Source of the DNA: Bacteroidales bacterium
GTDB lineage: Bacteria; Bacteroidota; Bacteroidia; Bacteroidales; F082
Reading direction: 5' to 3'
DNA: 64,000 nt
NCBI GenBank assembly: GCA_017439405.1
Contig: JAFSJF010000131.1
Coordinates: 25,233 to 89,232 of the forward strand
The notes below the pieces were generated by a model. It did no database searches. It saw only the letters and a program-made list of their open reading frames with translations, and was not told the origin of the DNA. Both the position numbers and the translations under genes were made by a program. This document shows positions 55,962 through 64,000 of the stretch, piece after piece; position 1 is the first letter of the stretch; each line of letters starts with the position of its first letter.

Positions 55962-56050
55962 TTGCCTTTCCTGAAAATTGCTTGTTTTGCCCAAGGATGC
56001 GACACAAAAGATATGGCTAAAGAAAGCGCATTCTTCGCTTTGTTCCTTAA
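55962..56050 (+). repeat. Degenerate copy (A) of the promoter-leader cassette
   Basis: Plus-strand TTG, ~17 bases, TTGTTTTG (decayed -7), then GCCC...ATGGC and AAAGCG-CATTCTT-CGCTTT followed by GTTCCTTA. It aligns with the copies at 58784, 61101 and 61821 but the -7 has lost its TA. No plus-strand gene follows; it lies after the stop of the minus-strand fic gene, where the hairpin might end fic transcripts. Confidence 0.6.
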
Positions 56051-57779: not shown

Positions 57780-58124
57780 ATGGCCAAACCACACAGAATA
57801 CACATCGGACAACTTATCAAAGAGGTATTTGACGAAAAAGGAATAAGCGTGACCGAGTTCGCCCGTCGCATCAATTATGCCAGGCCCAATGTGTATTCCA
57901 TTTTTGAGCGATACGATATTGGCGTGGAGCAACTCATCGACATTTCTGAAGCCTTGGGCCACAACTTCCTTGACGATGTCCAACTGAAAAGCGGCTTGGA
58001 ATCGCAGCTTACGACGCGCCAACTGAATGTGCATCTCAACTTTGAAGCGTTTTCGCCCGAAATGGCCGAGCGGATTTCCTTGTTGCTGAAGGAATTGGCG
58101 GAAACAGGAAACCATGTCGCATAA
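57780..58124 (+). CDS. XRE-family helix-turn-helix regulator
   Basis: 114 residues. The N-terminal ~60 residues form a helix-turn-helix (IGQLIKEVFDEKGISVTEFARRINYARPNVYSIFERYDIGVEQLIDISEALGHNF). The rest, with a run of helices (SPEMAERISLLLKELAETGN), may mediate dimerisation. Upstream direct repeats spaced by 21 bases suggest it controls its own promoter. No toxin or phage gene is directly linked; the broken DUF4160 gene follows. Confidence 0.85.
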   Translation: MAKPHRIHIGQLIKEVFDEKGISVTEFARRINYARPNVYSIFERYDIGVEQLIDISEALGHNFLDDVQLKSGLESQLTTRQLNVHLNFEAFSPEMAERISLLLKELAETGNHVA

Positions 58125-58720: not shown

Positions 58721-58783
58721 TTGTATTACACTCCCAATTCGCCACCCTGTGCATAGCGAATTTCAAATTGGAAACTGAGACAA

Positions 58784-58898
58784 ATTGTTGCAGTTTTTTG
58801 TTTTTCCCCTTGCATTTCCCAAAATTTGCCTATCTTTGCCCCGCCAAGCCAAGAGATTGGCCCGGCCAGAGAAAGCGCATTCTTCGCTTTGTTCCTCA
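58784..58898 (+). repeat. Promoter-leader cassette, copy B
   Basis: TTG (58810-58812), 18 bases, TATCTTTG (58831-58838), then CCCCGCCAA, a hairpin GCCAA-GAGA-TTGGC closed by GCC/GGC, then CAGAGAAAGCGCATTCTTCG and CTTTGTTCCTCA (hairpin AAAGCG/CGCTTT at 58872-58890). It shares the upstream TTGTTGCAGTTTTTTG with copy D. It should drive the DUF1016 gene at 58977. Confidence 0.8.
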
Positions 58899-58976: not shown

Positions 58977-60170
58977 ATGACAAAAGACAGTGCAATGCCT
59001 CAATCAGCCTATCTTCATGCTGCCCACACCATCAAGGATGCAATACTGTCTGCACAATATGAGGCGGCCCGTGGTGTCAACAACATCCAATTGATGCTCT
59101 ATTATGCCATAGGACGCTATATTTCTGCCAATACCCGAAAAAAGAATTGGGGAACAGGGGCACTCGCCGAAATAAGCCGTCTGCTAAAAGAAGAAATGCC
59201 AGGATTGAGAGGATATTCCGTGTCGAACCTCAAGCTTATGCGCATCTTCTATGAGGCATGGAGCGACCTTGACGCCAATTCGCCAGTTAAAACTGACGAA
59301 TTAGGTTCCCCAGCGATTTCGCCAGTTAAAACTGACGAAATCCAAAAACCTTGCAGCCCTACCGTATCATTTGAAGGAATCGCCATCCTGCCGTTCAACT
59401 TCCCTGCCATCGATGCATTCCCTGCCAATGATTTCCGAAGCATAGGCTTTACGCATCATTCCGAAATACTTGTCAAATGCAAGAACCGGGCAGAACGTCT
59501 GTTCTATATCTCCCTCTGCGCCCGCGAGCATCTCACCCCTGACGGCATAAAAAACTGCATCAAGCAAGGTCTTTACGCGCAACGTGGCAGCATGCCTAAC
59601 AATTTCCTGCAAAAATTACCGGCCGGCAACCTCGCCAAACGGGCTATCCTTGCATTCAAAGACCAATACATGCTTGATTTCATCAATGTTGAGGAACTTG
59701 GCGCACGCGACATCGAGGAAGTGAACGAAGCCGTGGTCGAACAGCAAATCGTTGACAACATCAAGAAGTTCATCCTTCGCTTTGGCAAGGATTTCTTGTT
59801 TGTCGGAAACCAATACACCATTACGGTTGCTGGACACGACCATCGCATCGACCTGTTGTTTTTCAACCGCGAGTTGGATTGTCTTGTGGCCGTTGAACTG
59901 AAAACCGGGCCTTTCAAAAACATCTATCTTGGCGAACTGAACGGGTATTTGCGCCTGCTTGACGACTATGTGCGCAAGCCTCACGAGAACCCGAGCATTG
60001 GCATAGTGCTTTGCAAGAGTGCCGACCGCACATACGTGGAATATATGATTCAGGATTACGACAAGCCCATGGGTGTGGCCACCTATAAAACCGCCACCGA
60101 TATGCCCGACCGTCTCCGTAATGCCCTGCCAAGCCAAGAATCGTTGATGAAACTGATGGATGGAGAGTGA
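58977..60170 (+). CDS. DUF1016/YhcG-family PD-(D/E)xK nuclease-like protein
   Basis: 397 residues. The N-terminal domain (about 10-100, AAHTIKDAILSAQYEAARGVNNIQLMLYYAIGRYISANTRKKNWGTGALAEISRLLKEE) and C-terminal domain with IDLLFFNRELDCLVAVELKTG (PD-(D/E)xK core: Asp, Glu-x-Lys) match YhcG. Between them lies an odd linker (about 102-125) with SPVKTDE twice, coded by two copies of a near-palindrome. YhcG-like proteins are linked to DNA restriction or mobile elements; the function is unproven. Expressed from cassette B. Confidence 0.88.
   Translation: MTKDSAMPQSAYLHAAHTIKDAILSAQYEAARGVNNIQLMLYYAIGRYISANTRKKNWGTGALAEISRLLKEEMPGLRGYSVSNLKLMRIFYEAWSDLDANSPVKTDELGSPAISPVKTDEIQKPCSPTVSFEGIAILPFNFPAIDAFPANDFRSIGFTHHSEILVKCKNRAERLFYISLCAREHLTPDGIKNCIKQGLYAQRGSMPNNFLQKLPAGNLAKRAILAFKDQYMLDFINVEELGARDIEEVNEAVVEQQIVDNIKKFILRFGKDFLFVGNQYTITVAGHDHRIDLLFFNRELDCLVAVELKTGPFKNIYLGELNGYLRLLDDYVRKPHENPSIGIVLCKSADRTYVEYMIQDYDKPMGVATYKTATDMPDRLRNALPSQESLMKLMDGE
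59279..59339 (+). repeat. Two near-palindromic repeats inside the DUF1016 gene
   Basis: TTCGCCAGTT-AA-AACTGACGAA occurs at 59279-59300 and 59318-59339, 39 bases apart (13 codons). Arms match at nine of ten positions. The spacing preserves the reading frame, adding two SPVKTDE units to the protein linker. Confidence 0.8.
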
Positions 60171-60257: not shown

Positions 60258-60313
60258 CCAACATCATCAAAACACATTCTATGTAAAAAAAGGACAAATA
60301 TCGCCCAAATGTA

Positions 60314-60427
60314 GAGACGCAAAATTTTGCGTCTCACAATCATCCAAATAATCAAATCAGAGACGCAAGATTTTTCGTCTCACAATCATCCAAACAATCA
60401 AATCAGAGACGCAAGATTTTGCGACTC
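60314..60427. repeat. Three tandem REP palindromes upstream of the RAYT gene
   Basis: Palindromes GAGACGCAA(A/G)-ATTTTGCGTCTC type at 60314-60335, 60360-60381 and 60406-60427, with period 46. The spacers (ACAATCATCCAAA(T/C)AATC, then AAATCA) are almost the same. The second copy has one mismatch (TTTTTCGTCTC) and the third has GCGACTC. They are probably the substrate family of the adjacent transposase. Confidence 0.88.
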
Positions 60428-60447
60428 TACAAACCGAAACGACAATC

Positions 60448-61080
60448 ATGGCCGATTTATACAAAAACAAATACCGCATACCAACCGCCCGCGCCACTTG
60501 GCACGATTACAAAGGCGGTTCGTATTTTGTCACGATTTGCACCAAAAATCGGGAATTCTTTTTCGGTGACATAAATAATGGTGAAATGAATTATTCCTCT
60601 CTCGGTCAATCTGCCATTGATTGTTTGCAACAAATCCCCACACATTTCCCACATGTGGAAATCCCAATTTTCGTCGTGATGCCCAACCATATTCACGCCA
60701 TCGTCATCATCAACGCCCTTGCCCCCTCTGTAGAGACGCAAAATCTTGCGTCTCAAAATCATACCATCAATCCATTGGAGACGCAAGATTTTGCGTCTCT
60801 ACAACAGGCCAAACAAAAATTCGGGCCACAATCGAAAAACCTGGCATCGGTGGTTCGTGGTTTCAAGATTGGTGTCACCAAATTTGCGAACGAAAACGAC
60901 CTTTCTTTTGCATGGCAACCTCGTTTTCACGACCACATCATCCGCAACCATCACGAAATGAGCCTTATCGCTGATTACATCCAAAATAATGTAATCAGAT
61001 GGAAGGACGATTGCTTCTATGGCAGCAAGAGCATCCCTGCCATAAATGAATCTGAAGATTCATACCAACAATTTTTCTGA
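60448..61080 (+). CDS. REP-associated tyrosine transposase (RAYT, IS200/Y1 family)
   Basis: 210 residues. GGSYFVTICTKNREFFFG opens the domain; the HUH metal site is PNHIHAIVII; the likely nucleophile is the Tyr of LIADYIQNNVIRWKDD; HDHIIRNHHEM fits the end of the fold. The stretch between the HUH motif and the later helices (about residues 90-118) contains VETQNLAS and LETQDFAS, coded by two REP palindromes inside the gene, so its own repeats lie in its coding region without breaking the frame. RAYTs are thought to spread REPs. The ORF is full length and may be active. Confidence 0.88.
   Translation: MADLYKNKYRIPTARATWHDYKGGSYFVTICTKNREFFFGDINNGEMNYSSLGQSAIDCLQQIPTHFPHVEIPIFVVMPNHIHAIVIINALAPSVETQNLASQNHTINPLETQDFASLQQAKQKFGPQSKNLASVVRGFKIGVTKFANENDLSFAWQPRFHDHIIRNHHEMSLIADYIQNNVIRWKDDCFYGSKSIPAINESEDSYQQFF
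60733..60799. repeat. Two REP palindromes inside the RAYT coding sequence
   Basis: Copies at 60733-60754 and 60778-60799, 45 bases apart, both with arms GAGACGCAA and TTGCGTCTC and complete to the last pair. The 45-base spacing is a multiple of three, and the 46-base spacing upstream is not, consistent with selection to stay in frame here. Confidence 0.88.
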
Positions 61081-61100
61081 CACACATTTTTTTCATCTTT

Positions 61101-61218
61101 CCCATTGCAAAAGCAAAAAATTGCCTATCTTTGCCCCGCCAAGCCGATGGCTACTGAGCTTGTCGAAGTAGAGAAAACGGCTCGGCCAGAGAAAGCGCAT
61201 TCTTCGCTTTGTTCCTCA
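61101..61218 (+). repeat. Promoter-leader cassette, copy C
   Basis: TTG (61105-61107), 18 bases, TATCTTTG (61126-61133), CCCCGCCAA, a hairpin with stem GCCG/CGGC and a larger loop, GGCCAGAG, then AAAGCG-CATTCTT-CGCTTT (61192-61210) and GTTCCTCA. It is followed after about 50 bases by the toxin-antitoxin operon. Confidence 0.8.
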
Positions 61219-61267: not shown

Positions 61268-61498
61268 ATGGAAACCATAACATTGCAATTCAACCCAAAC
61301 AGTGCATTTGCTGCGGCATTGGCCTCATTGCTGCGTGATGCCAAGGATGTGAACGTGATGGAAAAACGCATAACCCCAAAACGCCACCGCAAAACCAATT
61401 ATGAAAAGACGCTTGAAGCCATCCGGGATGCCAATGAAGACAAAAACCTGACAAGTTATGCCAGCGTTGATGAGCTTTTCGAAAAACTTGGTATATGA
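61268..61498 (+). CDS. Antitoxin of a type II toxin-antitoxin pair
   Basis: 76 residues, METITLQFNPNSAFAAALASLLRDAKDVNVMEKR, with a basic middle (KRITPKRHRKTNYEK) and acidic end (SYASVDELFEKLGI). Position directly before a YafQ-like toxin with a 4-base ATGA overlap marks it as the antitoxin. The fold is likely a short beta-strand/helix DNA-binding head with a toxin-wrapping tail; I cannot name the antitoxin family with certainty. Confidence 0.75.
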   Translation: METITLQFNPNSAFAAALASLLRDAKDVNVMEKRITPKRHRKTNYEKTLEAIRDANEDKNLTSYASVDELFEKLGI

Positions 61499-61776
61499 AT
61501 TACGAGGTTAAGACAACCAAACAATTCGATAAAGATGCCAACCTTTGTGTAAGGCGAGGATATGACACGACCAAACTTCGCGAGGCAATTAGCTTGCTAT
61601 CAGAAACGGGGACACTGCCACAACGGTTCAAGCCACATAAGCTAACCGGCGAATATAAAGGCGCATGGGAATGTCACATCGGACCCGATTGGCTGATGAT
61701 TTACAACAAAGAAAAAACTATCAAACTGATAAGGCTTATCCGTACCGGCACCCATGCCGACCTTTTCGGGAAATGA
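61495..61776 (+). CDS. YafQ/RelE-family mRNA interferase toxin
   Basis: 93 residues. YEVKTTKQFDKDANLCVRRGYD, KPHKLTGEYKGAWECHIGPDWLMIY and the ending LIRLIRTGTHADLFGK match the YafQ family, including the ECHI-PDW-IY and RTGTHxDLF segments that carry catalytic histidines. It cleaves mRNA on the ribosome when freed from its antitoxin. Overlap with the antitoxin is ATGA (61495-61498). Confidence 0.93.
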   Translation: MNYEVKTTKQFDKDANLCVRRGYDTTKLREAISLLSETGTLPQRFKPHKLTGEYKGAWECHIGPDWLMIYNKEKTIKLIRLIRTGTHADLFGK

Positions 61777-61820
61777 CGTTTTGCCAACCAAATTGAAAAA
61801 ACAGACAAAAAACTGCAGCA

Positions 61821-61938
61821 ATTTGTTGCAGTTTTTTGTTTTTTCCCTTGCATTTTCCATTTTCTTCGTATCTTTGCCCCGCCAAACCACATGAAGTGGA
61901 ATGGCCAGAGAAAGCGCATTCTTCGCTTTGTTCCTCAG
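61821..61938 (+). repeat. Promoter-leader cassette, copy D
   Basis: TTG (61848-61850), 18 bases, TATCTTTG (61869-61876), CCCC, GCCA-AA-CCAC-ATGAA-GTGG-AA-TGGC hairpin, CAGAG, AAAGCG-CATTCTT-CGCTTT (61911-61929) and GTTCCTCA. Upstream TTGTTGCAGTTTTTTG matches copy B. It should drive the CXXX-repeat peptide and its maturase. Confidence 0.8.
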
Positions 61939-62168: not shown

Positions 62169-62816
62169 ATGGAAAACAAAGAGAAAAACGAAACGCAAAA
62201 CCGAAGGGAATTCTTCAAGCAGGCGGCAAAAAAGGCTTTGCCGATTTTGGGGGCAATTACGTTAGGTAGTTTGCCTCAAATAATTAAAGCAAACAATGAA
62301 GCATTAGGTTGTACTTCAGGGTCATGCTATATGGTATGTGGTTATTCGTGTCAAAAAGGTTGTAGTGACGATTGTTTAACTTCTTGCAAAGGGAATTGCA
62401 AACGAACGTGTTCGGGTGGAAGTAGCGGCGAATACAGTGGATCTACTTCATCTTCATCTTCATCTTCATCATCCTATGATTATCCTCAACAATCATTTTC
62501 AAGTTGTACCGACTGCTCTGGAGGATGCAAGGACAGTTGTTCTGCTGGATGTAGGACAACATGTACTGGTAATTGTGGAAATAATTGTATCGGCAAATGT
62601 AAAGCAAGTTGTGCGGACGATTGTTCTTCTACATGCAAAAGTGGGTGTAAAGGTCAATGTACTGCTTCTTGCTCTGCCATGTGTAAAGAAGACTGCTTTT
62701 ATGAGTGTAAAACCACATGTAAAGGATGCAAAAACACATGCATGGGTTCATGCGCAACTGGATGCACTTATTCTTGCTTTACATATTGCTCGGGATGTGG
62801 CAGGTCGGCTTATTAA
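62169..62816 (+). CDS. CXXX-repeat peptide precursor with Tat-like leader (RiPP)
   Basis: 215 residues. Residues 1-47 form a leader with a twin-arginine-like motif (NRREFFKQAAKK) and a hydrophobic segment (ALPILGAITLGSLP). The rest holds 35 cysteines: block 1 (48-81, 9 Cys) and block 2 (113-210, 26 Cys) with strict Cys every fourth residue, interrupted only by one CX4C, and three CX2C steps. A Ser-rich linker (82-112) contains nine Ser in a row. X residues are mostly small or charged (CKGN, CSDD, CTGN). This is the target type of CXXX-repeat radical SAM modification systems. Start at the ATG at 62169; its codon use is more AT-rich than the maturase after it. Confidence 0.85.
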   Translation: MENKEKNETQNRREFFKQAAKKALPILGAITLGSLPQIIKANNEALGCTSGSCYMVCGYSCQKGCSDDCLTSCKGNCKRTCSGGSSGEYSGSTSSSSSSSSSYDYPQQSFSSCTDCSGGCKDSCSAGCRTTCTGNCGNNCIGKCKASCADDCSSTCKSGCKGQCTASCSAMCKEDCFYECKTTCKGCKNTCMGSCATGCTYSCFTYCSGCGRSAY

Positions 62817-62842
62817 CTAATTCCAAACTAAAGAGTTAATAA

Positions 62843-64000
62843 ATGACACTGATTAAAGAAGATGCCCAACCTTGGCAGTCCGGCATGGCGAAAAACATCA
62901 CTTTCATCGTCACAAAGGACTGCCAGTTGGCCTGCAAATATTGCTACCTTGTGGGCAAGAACGTGAAGGAACGTATGCCTTGGGAGGTGGCCAAGACCTT
63001 CATCGACTATGTGCTTGACCATGAGAACGACCCCGATTTCGCTTACGAGTCGGTGGTGTGGGACTTCATCGGCGGAGAGCCCTTCCTGGAGATAGATCTC
63101 ATCGACAAGATTTGCGACTACATCAAAACTGAACTCTTCCGTCGCAACCACCACTGGTTCAACTCGTACCGTTTCTCCTTCTCCACCAACGGCATCAACT
63201 ACCACGAGAAGGCCGTGCAGGACTTCATCAAGAAGAACCGCGAACACCTCTCCATCGGCATCACCATCGACGGGACGGAGAAGAAGCACAACATTAACCG
63301 CGTGTATAAGATTACCGAGAAAGGCTCCTACAAGGATGTGGTGAAGAACATCCCGCTGTGGCTGGAGCAGTTCCCGGGCGGCGGCACCAAGGTCACCATC
63401 TCGTCGGCGGACGTCCCGTATATCACCGAGAGCGTGCTACACCTCTATTCCTTGGGCATCCACGAGGTCAACATCAATGTGGTGTTCGAGGATGTGTGGC
63501 AAGAAGGCGACGACCTCCGCTTTGAGGAACAGCTGATGCAACTCGCCGACGCCATCATCGACGGAGGCTATTATCAGGACTATGCCTGTTCCTTCTTCTC
63601 GGAGCATATCGGCAAGCCGCAAGACCCGGAGCGCGACAACCAGAACTGGTGCGGCGCGGGCAAGATGCTCAGCGTGGACGCGGCGGGCAACCTCTACCCT
63701 TGCACCCGCTTCGCGCAATACTCTTTGAGGGACAAGGAGACTTGGACTATCGGCAACATCCACGACGGCATCGACAAGAACAAGCTGCGTCCCTTCCTCA
63801 CCCTCGACCGCACGACGCAAAGCCCGCAGAAGTGCATCGAATGTGAGGTGGCAAGCGGTTGCGCCTGGTGCCAAGGCGAGAACTTCGACGCGGCACAGAC
63901 CCACACCGTGTTTGAACGCGCCACGGCCATCTGCCTCATGCACAAGGCCCGCGTGCGCGCCAACAACTACTACTGGAACAAGCTCTACCGCAAGCTCGAA
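62843..64000 (+). CDS. Radical SAM-SPASM peptide maturase of the CXXX-repeat system (3' end outside window)
   Basis: 386 residues visible, no stop reached. The radical SAM cluster is C27-x3-C31-x2-C34 (TKDCQLACKYCYLVG); GGEP follows in DFIGGEPFLEID; FSTNGINY is the next strand. The C-terminal SPASM cluster has Cys270-x11-Gly-x4-Cys287, then Cys331-x2-Cys334-x5-Cys340-x2-Cys343 and Cys364, so it holds one or two auxiliary Fe-S clusters. The spacing of 26 bases from the precursor gene shows they work together: it should install radical-made links at or near the cysteines. Cytosolic action before Tat export is inferred. Confidence 0.9.
   Translation, partial: MTLIKEDAQPWQSGMAKNITFIVTKDCQLACKYCYLVGKNVKERMPWEVAKTFIDYVLDHENDPDFAYESVVWDFIGGEPFLEIDLIDKICDYIKTELFRRNHHWFNSYRFSFSTNGINYHEKAVQDFIKKNREHLSIGITIDGTEKKHNINRVYKITEKGSYKDVVKNIPLWLEQFPGGGTKVTISSADVPYITESVLHLYSLGIHEVNINVVFEDVWQEGDDLRFEEQLMQLADAIIDGGYYQDYACSFFSEHIGKPQDPERDNQNWCGAGKMLSVDAAGNLYPCTRFAQYSLRDKETWTIGNIHDGIDKNKLRPFLTLDRTTQSPQKCIECEVASGCAWCQGENFDAAQTHTVFERATAICLMHKARVRANNYYWNKLYRKLE

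Follow-up and report, generated by a model that had tools for sequence, protein, structure and literature searches.

The stretch analysed here, referred to as the window, makes up the final 64,000 bases of a contig (C118, 89,232 bases) from a Bacteroidales bacterium. At its downstream end lie two genes on the forward strand, a cysteine-rich precursor peptide and a radical S-adenosylmethionine (SAM) enzyme, which together resemble a maturation system for a ribosomally synthesized and post-translationally modified peptide (RiPP). The precursor gene (62169..62816, with its ATG at 62169 and its stop codon at 62814-62816) was recognised as an open reading frame (ORF) and by its cysteine-spacing statistics. 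It encodes 215 amino acid residues, 35 of them cysteines. After a gap of 26 bases follows the enzyme gene (62843..64000), of which 386 codons are present. Its 3' end is lost because the contig itself stops there. The window being the end of the contig, nothing lies downstream on C118.

The precursor begins with a leader (62169..62291) that carries twin arginines (62202-62207) within the sequence NRREFFKQ. A hydrophobic stretch follows and ends near IIKA, a possible signal-peptidase site. A first module of CXXX repeats with nine cysteines (62310..62411) is divided from a second module with 26 (62505..62798) by a linker (62412..62504) that includes a run of exactly nine serines. The original prediction, made from the sequence of this DNA, had described this leader, both cysteine counts, their nearly uniform CX3C spacing and the serine divider, and counting bears it out. 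Of the 34 steps from one cysteine to the next, 29 span four residues, three span 3, one spans 5 and one spans 32. When the core was shuffled 20,000 times with its composition preserved, steps of four averaged 3.5 and never exceeded 12. Substrates of the twin-arginine translocation (Tat) pathway carry a twin-arginine motif ahead of a hydrophobic stretch, and the NRREFFK leader has both.

The nearest relatives among 133 other precursors are found at loci L088 (50% identity) and L047 (48%). No second precursor was detected in the same genome by a search with TIGR04117, the NCBIfam model of CXXX targets, at E 0.001. The repeat model TIGR04114 gave no match in this genome, and since it gave none in any control genome either, its silence carries no weight.

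The enzyme belongs to the radical SAM/SPASM maturase family TIGR04115, whose profile it matches with 616.9 bits (cut-off 350) over all 359 of 359 model positions. The original prediction of an intact CX3CX2C site and seven SPASM cysteines is upheld. The cluster site, CQLACKYC (62921..62944), provides C27, C31 and C34, and the SPASM region (63650..63934) contains C270, C287, C331, C334, C340, C343 and C364. All ten of these residues, together with C91 and C249, are invariant in an alignment of 34 enzymes, namely that of the window and 33 drawn from the named loci described below. The second-best NCBIfam family is PapB (NF047865, 185.9 bits, under its cut-off of 340). Scores against TIGR03974 (103.9 bits, cut-off 425) and TIGR03906 (100.2 bits, cut-off 453) are lower. 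The nearest solved structure is PDB entry 5wgg ("Radical SAM domain protein", E 2.6e-19), which corresponds to the SCIFF maturase CteB. The window enzyme very likely modifies the cysteines of the neighbouring precursor.

The TIGR04115 enzyme is frequent in Bacteroidales from ruminants and from the gut. In a scan of named genomes, 207 of 214 pattern matches encode a relative of the enzyme, and gut and rumen sources appear in the record titles; the best 80 loci were analysed. Precursor frames were picked solely by the presence of at least four CX3C steps, which gave 153 frames in the 80 loci and the window. The motif RR.[FLIM][FLI][RK] occurs in 134 of these, all on the strand of the enzyme. Among the 19 frames without the motif, 13 were judged to be chance frames and three (L055, L084, L122) are precursors truncated where their contig stops. 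The rest are a frame without an N-terminus (L073), a second fragment (L082) and one with an altered motif (L086, 8988). At least one twin-arginine precursor is present at 76 of the 80 loci, so the pairing of precursor and maturase does recur in related genomes, as the original prediction required. At the other four, the available DNA starts just upstream of the enzyme gene or within it, and three of the four show a severed precursor. One precursor was found at 41 loci and two or more at 35, and several precursors within one locus can differ strongly.

The leaders follow the majority pattern LQSRREFFKKAAKKALPILG. Phenylalanine at two places (131 and 132 of 134) and lysine at a third (129) are nearly constant, counts that owe something to the search itself, whose motif imposed RR and limited the residues allowed directly after it. 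Positions free of the search motif are also conserved, with serine in 101, alanine in 111 and in 108, leucine in 124 and proline in 129 of the 134. As an attempted control, ordinary Tat leaders were sought in the same loci. This gave 27 regular-expression matches, of which 25 were TatC itself; one of the other two is a membrane-type protein (L074), and the last alone (L094, 17958-19586) resembles a Tat substrate. The conservation of the leader goes further than an ordinary Tat signal would lead us to anticipate, so the maturation proteins may well read it too. A strict lipobox is present in 15 of the 134 precursors.

The cores contain between 8 and 51 cysteines, with a median of 15. Across them 2233 of 2571 cysteine-to-cysteine steps measure four residues, and 300 shuffles reach at most 302. 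Within the CXXX repeat, the second X is glycine in 38% of cases and the third is serine, glycine or threonine in 71%. Aspartate and glutamate are scarce. There is a median of 0.2 such residues per cysteine; the ratio lies below one half in 125 of 134 cores, and nine have none at all. The window core has 11 for its 35 cysteines. Two separate modules are seen in 44 of the 134 precursors. The suggestion that the linker divides two separately modified domains is thus plausible for this precursor and is not general for the family.

A few precursors extend beyond their repeats into a further domain. That of L115 (4429-5655) resembles FISUMP, with 37.3 bits where the cut-off requires 41.65, and that of L082 (8739-9461; Xylanibacter rarus strain 109) weakly resembles Lcl_C (18.8 bits, cut-off 34.9).

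The gap between precursor and enzyme in the window contains a hairpin (62810-62842), which was considered as a conserved attenuator and rejected, as neither its position nor its sequence is kept among relatives. The gap measures at most 60 bases in 45 of 77 loci, the window included, and a strong hairpin is found in just a few of the 45. At L112 and L123, the 53-base gap between the last precursor and the enzyme holds a strong hairpin (-21.7 and -19.0 kcal/mol, respectively), perhaps a transcript attenuator.

Clustering of the ORFs from the 80 loci reveals the usual order of the operon: one or more precursors, TIGR04115, TIGR04119, TIGR04116, TatA and TatC. TIGR04115 is present at 80 loci, TIGR04119 at 79, TIGR04116 at 76, TatA at 68 and TatC at 64. 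Where at least 5 kb of downstream sequence is available (60 loci), the counts are 60 for TIGR04119, 59 for TIGR04116, 54 for TatA and 52 for TatC, with TatA and TatC together at 52. The identities of the proteins were taken from a profile scan of L047, in which TIGR04119 scored 230.2 bits (cut-off 150), TIGR04116 101 (50), TatA 59.7 (53.9) and TatC 157.9 (132.7). The original prediction proposed extending the locus in search of a second maturase, a transporter or a protease. A second maturase-type protein and a TatA-TatC pair are indeed usual in the relatives, and the Tat-type reading of the leader is strengthened by both the recurrent twin arginines and the translocase that usually closes the operon. 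No protease, and no exporter besides Tat, was recognised by eye among the recurrent gene clusters. An immunity gene and a metal gene were likewise not recognised among the 25 clusters present in at least six of the 80 loci, of which at least two are without identification.

The TIGR04119 protein (about 318 residues) has eight cysteines that are invariant in 60 aligned sequences out of 79 found. Seven of them (C189, C207, C256, C259, C264, C267 and C286) have SPASM-like spacing. No conserved CX3CX2C motif is present across the 60 sequences. From this cysteine pattern the protein may be read as a degenerate, or pseudo-radical-SAM, partner of TIGR04115.

The TIGR04116 protein is small (about 91 residues), and comparison of its profile with solved structures gave nothing convincing (best E 0.13). 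Within the order, 8 of 295 genomes contain a match that passes its cut-off. A role as a Tat-proofreading chaperone was ruled out, since TIGR04116 is also found at two loci without a twin-arginine leader or Tat genes. TIGR04116-like genes (94.3 and 51 bits) also occur in one genome (G381: L163, L164) where tblastn finds neither TIGR04115 nor TIGR04119 in the surrounding 18 kb.

The remainder of the operon in the window's own genome probably lies on another contig, C155. Its end encodes the last 39 residues of TIGR04119, followed by TIGR04116, TatA and TatC. Identity to L047 is 95% for TIGR04119, 96% for TIGR04116, 81% for TatA (with a query that contained a frame extension) and 90% for TatC. 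TIGR04116 scores 102.3 bits here (cut-off 50); TIGR04119, of which only those C-terminal residues are available, has no match over its cut-off in this genome. C118 and C155 would then adjoin, joining TIGR04116 and the Tat genes to the operon of the window, with a gap of about 0.95 kb expected to hold the end of TIGR04115 and most of TIGR04119. A separate TatA-TatC pair is found on contig C52, so that the genome has two TatC genes.

Further evidence for a dedicated translocase is provided by the number of TatC genes in 149 genomes of the family. At least two copies are found in 17 of the 22 genomes with TIGR04115 over its cut-off, compared with 5 of the 127 others, and one of these five (G123) has a split TIGR04115. 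The remaining five of the 22 have a single TatC, which in four of them lies, by position, beside TIGR04115; G117 is the exception. A tree was built from 33 operon copies of TatC (every second named locus and the copy on C155) and 30 other TatC sequences. The operon label needs 3 changes on this tree, compared with 21.1 in shuffles. One group holds 26 of the 33 operon copies, that on C155 included, and the copy on C52 falls outside it. A search of plasmids with an operon TatC returned 123 records, which have no bearing on the argument.

An example of the modification proteins with a different leader and exporter can be found on pAPRE01, a plasmid of Anaerococcus prevotii (L159/L160). Here TIGR04115 and TIGR04119 are fused into a single protein of 728 residues (487 and 278.8 bits), and this fusion argues that the two proteins work together. 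The peptide upstream contains CX3CX3CX3C and no twin arginines, and ATP-binding cassette (ABC) transporters and a lanthionine synthetase are encoded downstream. TIGR04116 on this plasmid is divided between two reading frames (L159, 2392-2650). A second example, L165, comes from another Bacteroidales family. Its cysteine-repeat peptide has no twin arginines, and after it come an ABC transporter, an S8 protease and a fused enzyme; a TatC is located elsewhere in the genome. At E 0.01, tblastn detected neither TatA nor TatC in the 18.9 kb of pAPRE01 covered or in the 18 kb of L165. L165 is one of eight further regions. Of the others, L162, L166, L167 and L168 have TIGR04115 with twin-arginine leaders, TatA and TatC, L163 and L164 have TIGR04116 without TIGR04115, and L161 has TIGR04115 and a twin-arginine leader but neither Tat gene. 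It appears that leader and exporter switch together while the modification proteins stay. With just two cases that lack Tat, the swap is suggestive and not statistical.

The model proposed for these observations is a RiPP-type maturation system with a Tat translocase of its own, through which the product is exported from the cytoplasm. We put its probability at roughly three in four. In this model, the conserved leader would serve both as a docking tag for the maturation proteins and as a Tat signal peptide. In the cytoplasm, TIGR04115, probably in a complex with TIGR04119 and the small TIGR04116 protein, would modify the CXXX cysteines repeat by repeat, the most likely result being cross-links through sulfur, of the thioether type or another. 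The stiffened, folded product would then pass to the TatA-TatC pair of the same operon. Signal peptidase would remove the leader; for the minority of relatives with a lipobox, anchoring by a lipid is predicted instead. The site of action of the mature peptide would be the periplasm or the cell surface. Cross-linking most likely comes before export, mainly because Tat transports proteins that are already folded and radical SAM enzymes work in the cytoplasm.

Several observations weigh against this model of Tat-coupled maturation. The window precursor scores 47.1 bits against TIGR04117 (45.6 in the genome search) and so misses the cut-off of 50. Thus, of the two profile searches that the original prediction called for, the one with the maturase family succeeded and the one with the target family fell just short. 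Among seven precursors from other loci only one reaches the cut-off (L047, 1434, 50.2 bits), the other six scoring 17.1-49.5. The alignment to the window precursor starts at residue 4; the model thus spans the leader, and leaders of this kind were known to those who built it. For TIGR04119 as a degenerate radical SAM protein, comparison with TIGR04115 by hhalign lends modest support (probability 37.6, E 0.00034). Its best PDB match, again 5wgg (E 0.008), covers the SPASM part alone, and its score against TIGR04085 is 17.7 bits, below the cut-off of 27.

Other such points concern the translocase. A linked TatC is missing from 8 of the 60 loci with sufficient downstream sequence, and TatA also from six of them; when these eight were rechecked by tblastn, TatC was found in none and TatA in two. 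L161 has TIGR04115 and a twin-arginine leader, yet tblastn finds no TatA or TatC within its 18 kb. Linkage is therefore the rule without being a requirement. Among the 17 genomes with several TatC genes, one (G122) has an enzyme broken by stops, its pieces occurring twice on two contigs, and five TatC matches. In the TatC tree, the operon copies of L070 and L104 cluster with the copy on C52, five more form a third group, and several long branches were flagged; for these reasons the system may have gained or exchanged its Tat genes on more than one occasion. Finally, the ABC transporters of pAPRE01 may serve the adjoining lanthipeptide genes instead.

A more specific form of the model can be offered tentatively, with the odds against it. 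A two-subunit complex of a radical SAM and a pseudo-radical-SAM protein would rigidly sulfur-cross-link each CXXX repeat before export, defining a Tat-exported class of RiPPs. Given how few aspartates and glutamates the cores contain, most cysteines must end otherwise than on a carboxylate residue, either on another acceptor, perhaps the next repeat, or free for metal. Because the residue four places on is usually a cysteine and few carboxylates are available as acceptors, the linkage may be of a new kind, for instance from the sulfur of one cysteine to a carbon of the next, resulting in a thioacetal ladder. If so, the product would be a long, rod-like surface peptide with up to about fifty linked cysteines.

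The rival that survives best, itself unlikely, is a thiol-rich metal sponge. Most cysteines would stay free and take up a metal such as Cu(I) while the peptide is still in the cytoplasm, and it would then exit via Tat with the metal bound. The enzyme would do no more than modify a few residues or build a minor chelating group, in the manner of the MNIO enzymes of bufferins. Cores with as many as 51 cysteines suit this explanation. Precedents are the proteins MtCsp1 and MtCsp2, described as having predicted Tat export, potentially in Cu(I)-loaded form (PMC6747150), and the bufferins, described as cysteine-rich, copper-chelating RiPPs that bear signal peptides (PMC12452194). On the other hand, 65% of the X residues are glycine, serine, threonine or asparagine, a composition that makes a helical bundle like that of Csp less likely. 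The mean helix propensity differs little, at 0.60 kcal/mol for the X residues and 0.55 for the enzyme, so such a bundle keeps some probability. The survey by eye of recurrent clusters, two or more of them without identification, is a further point against the sponge, as it turned up no metal gene.

Less likely again is a secreted antimicrobial, in which the loci would be bacteriocin clusters and the variable cores toxins against neighbours. The very different precursors that can share a locus, with two or more at 35 of 80, would fit such toxins, as would the gut and rumen sources and the patchy spread of TIGR04116. The same survey of clusters, however, recognised neither an immunity gene nor an exporter other than Tat. 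The strict lipoboxes and the few precursors that extend into a further domain, such as the sub-threshold FISUMP match of L115, favour a role in the cell's own envelope over that of a secreted antibiotic. A PapB-like ranthipeptide, with each cysteine sulfur bonded to the beta- or gamma-carbon of a nearby aspartate or glutamate, is very improbable: PapB is the second-best family and is described as joining cysteine to these residues at CX3D/E with other spacings tolerated (PMC9413430), but the enzyme falls under the PapB cut-off, the cores hold far fewer than one acceptor per cysteine, and the candidate precursor on pAPRE01 has no aspartate or glutamate within ten residues of its four cysteines.

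Several other features lie upstream of the precursor. A small helix-turn-helix (HTH) gene (57780-58124; HTH_3 22.3 bits, slightly under the cut-off of 23) is a possible regulator, and a similar gene (compare L050, 3665-4009) is found near 18 of the 80 operons. Between it and the precursor lie the genes of a YhcG-type PDDEXK nuclease with DUF1016 (58977-60170, by profile match) and of a YafQ-type toxin with a small gene directly upstream (61268-61776, 106.4 bits). A palindromic repeat of the GAGACGCAAAATTTTGCGTCTC type is present four times in 60313-60822, twice before and twice inside an ORF (60448-61080). The product of this ORF resembles a REP-associated transposase; it contains VMPNHIHAIV, a motif of such proteins, and has no Pfam match. 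A dispersed element of about 130 bases with TATCTTTG, which resembles a Bacteroidetes promoter -7 element, is present in three copies (58772-58898, 61067-61218 and 61810-61937) and a fourth, partial one (56003-56049). One copy ends about 230 bases ahead of the precursor.

Bacterial RiPPs are usually exported by ABC transporters. A Tat translocase dedicated to a RiPP would mean that folding or cross-linking precedes export, so that the succession of maturation and export could be put to a direct test. Elsewhere, related modification proteins occur beside ABC transporters, with leaders that lack twin arginines, which amounts to a natural swap experiment. A search of the open-access literature, mostly at the level of titles and abstracts, found among the papers listed no account of the TIGR04115 family or its product, of a Tat-exported radical SAM RiPP or of a Tat translocase dedicated to a RiPP.

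Each of the known systems shares some features with the one described here. Csp1 is also cysteine-rich with a predicted Tat route; it forms a four-helix bundle, and no modifying enzyme is named in the parts of that report drawn on here (PMC6747150). Bufferins are likewise cysteine-rich RiPP precursors with a signal peptide, and some carry lipoprotein signals or fused domains, about 16% of Buf2 being lipoprotein-like (PMC12452194). They differ in the class of their enzyme, MNIO, and in having Sec rather than Tat signal peptides. PapB and the other ranthipeptide maturases are radical SAM enzymes that act on cysteine motifs with a four-residue step, whereas here the family score is below the cut-off, most cysteines lack an aspartate or glutamate acceptor, and the leader is of the Tat type. 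CteB and QhpD are related through 5wgg and through matches to TIGR03974 and TIGR03906, with the window enzyme far below both family cut-offs. The closest likeness is to the CXXX-repeat system of NCBIfam (TIGR04115, TIGR04116, TIGR04117 and TIGR04119). The window enzyme is far above the TIGR04115 cut-off, and TIGR04116 of the same genome and TIGR04119 of L047 exceed theirs, whereas the window precursor is slightly under that of TIGR04117. These protein families had already been named by NCBIfam, and a dedicated Tat translocase does not appear in the names. What is added here is the coupling to Tat and the reading of TIGR04119 as a putative pseudo-radical-SAM protein.
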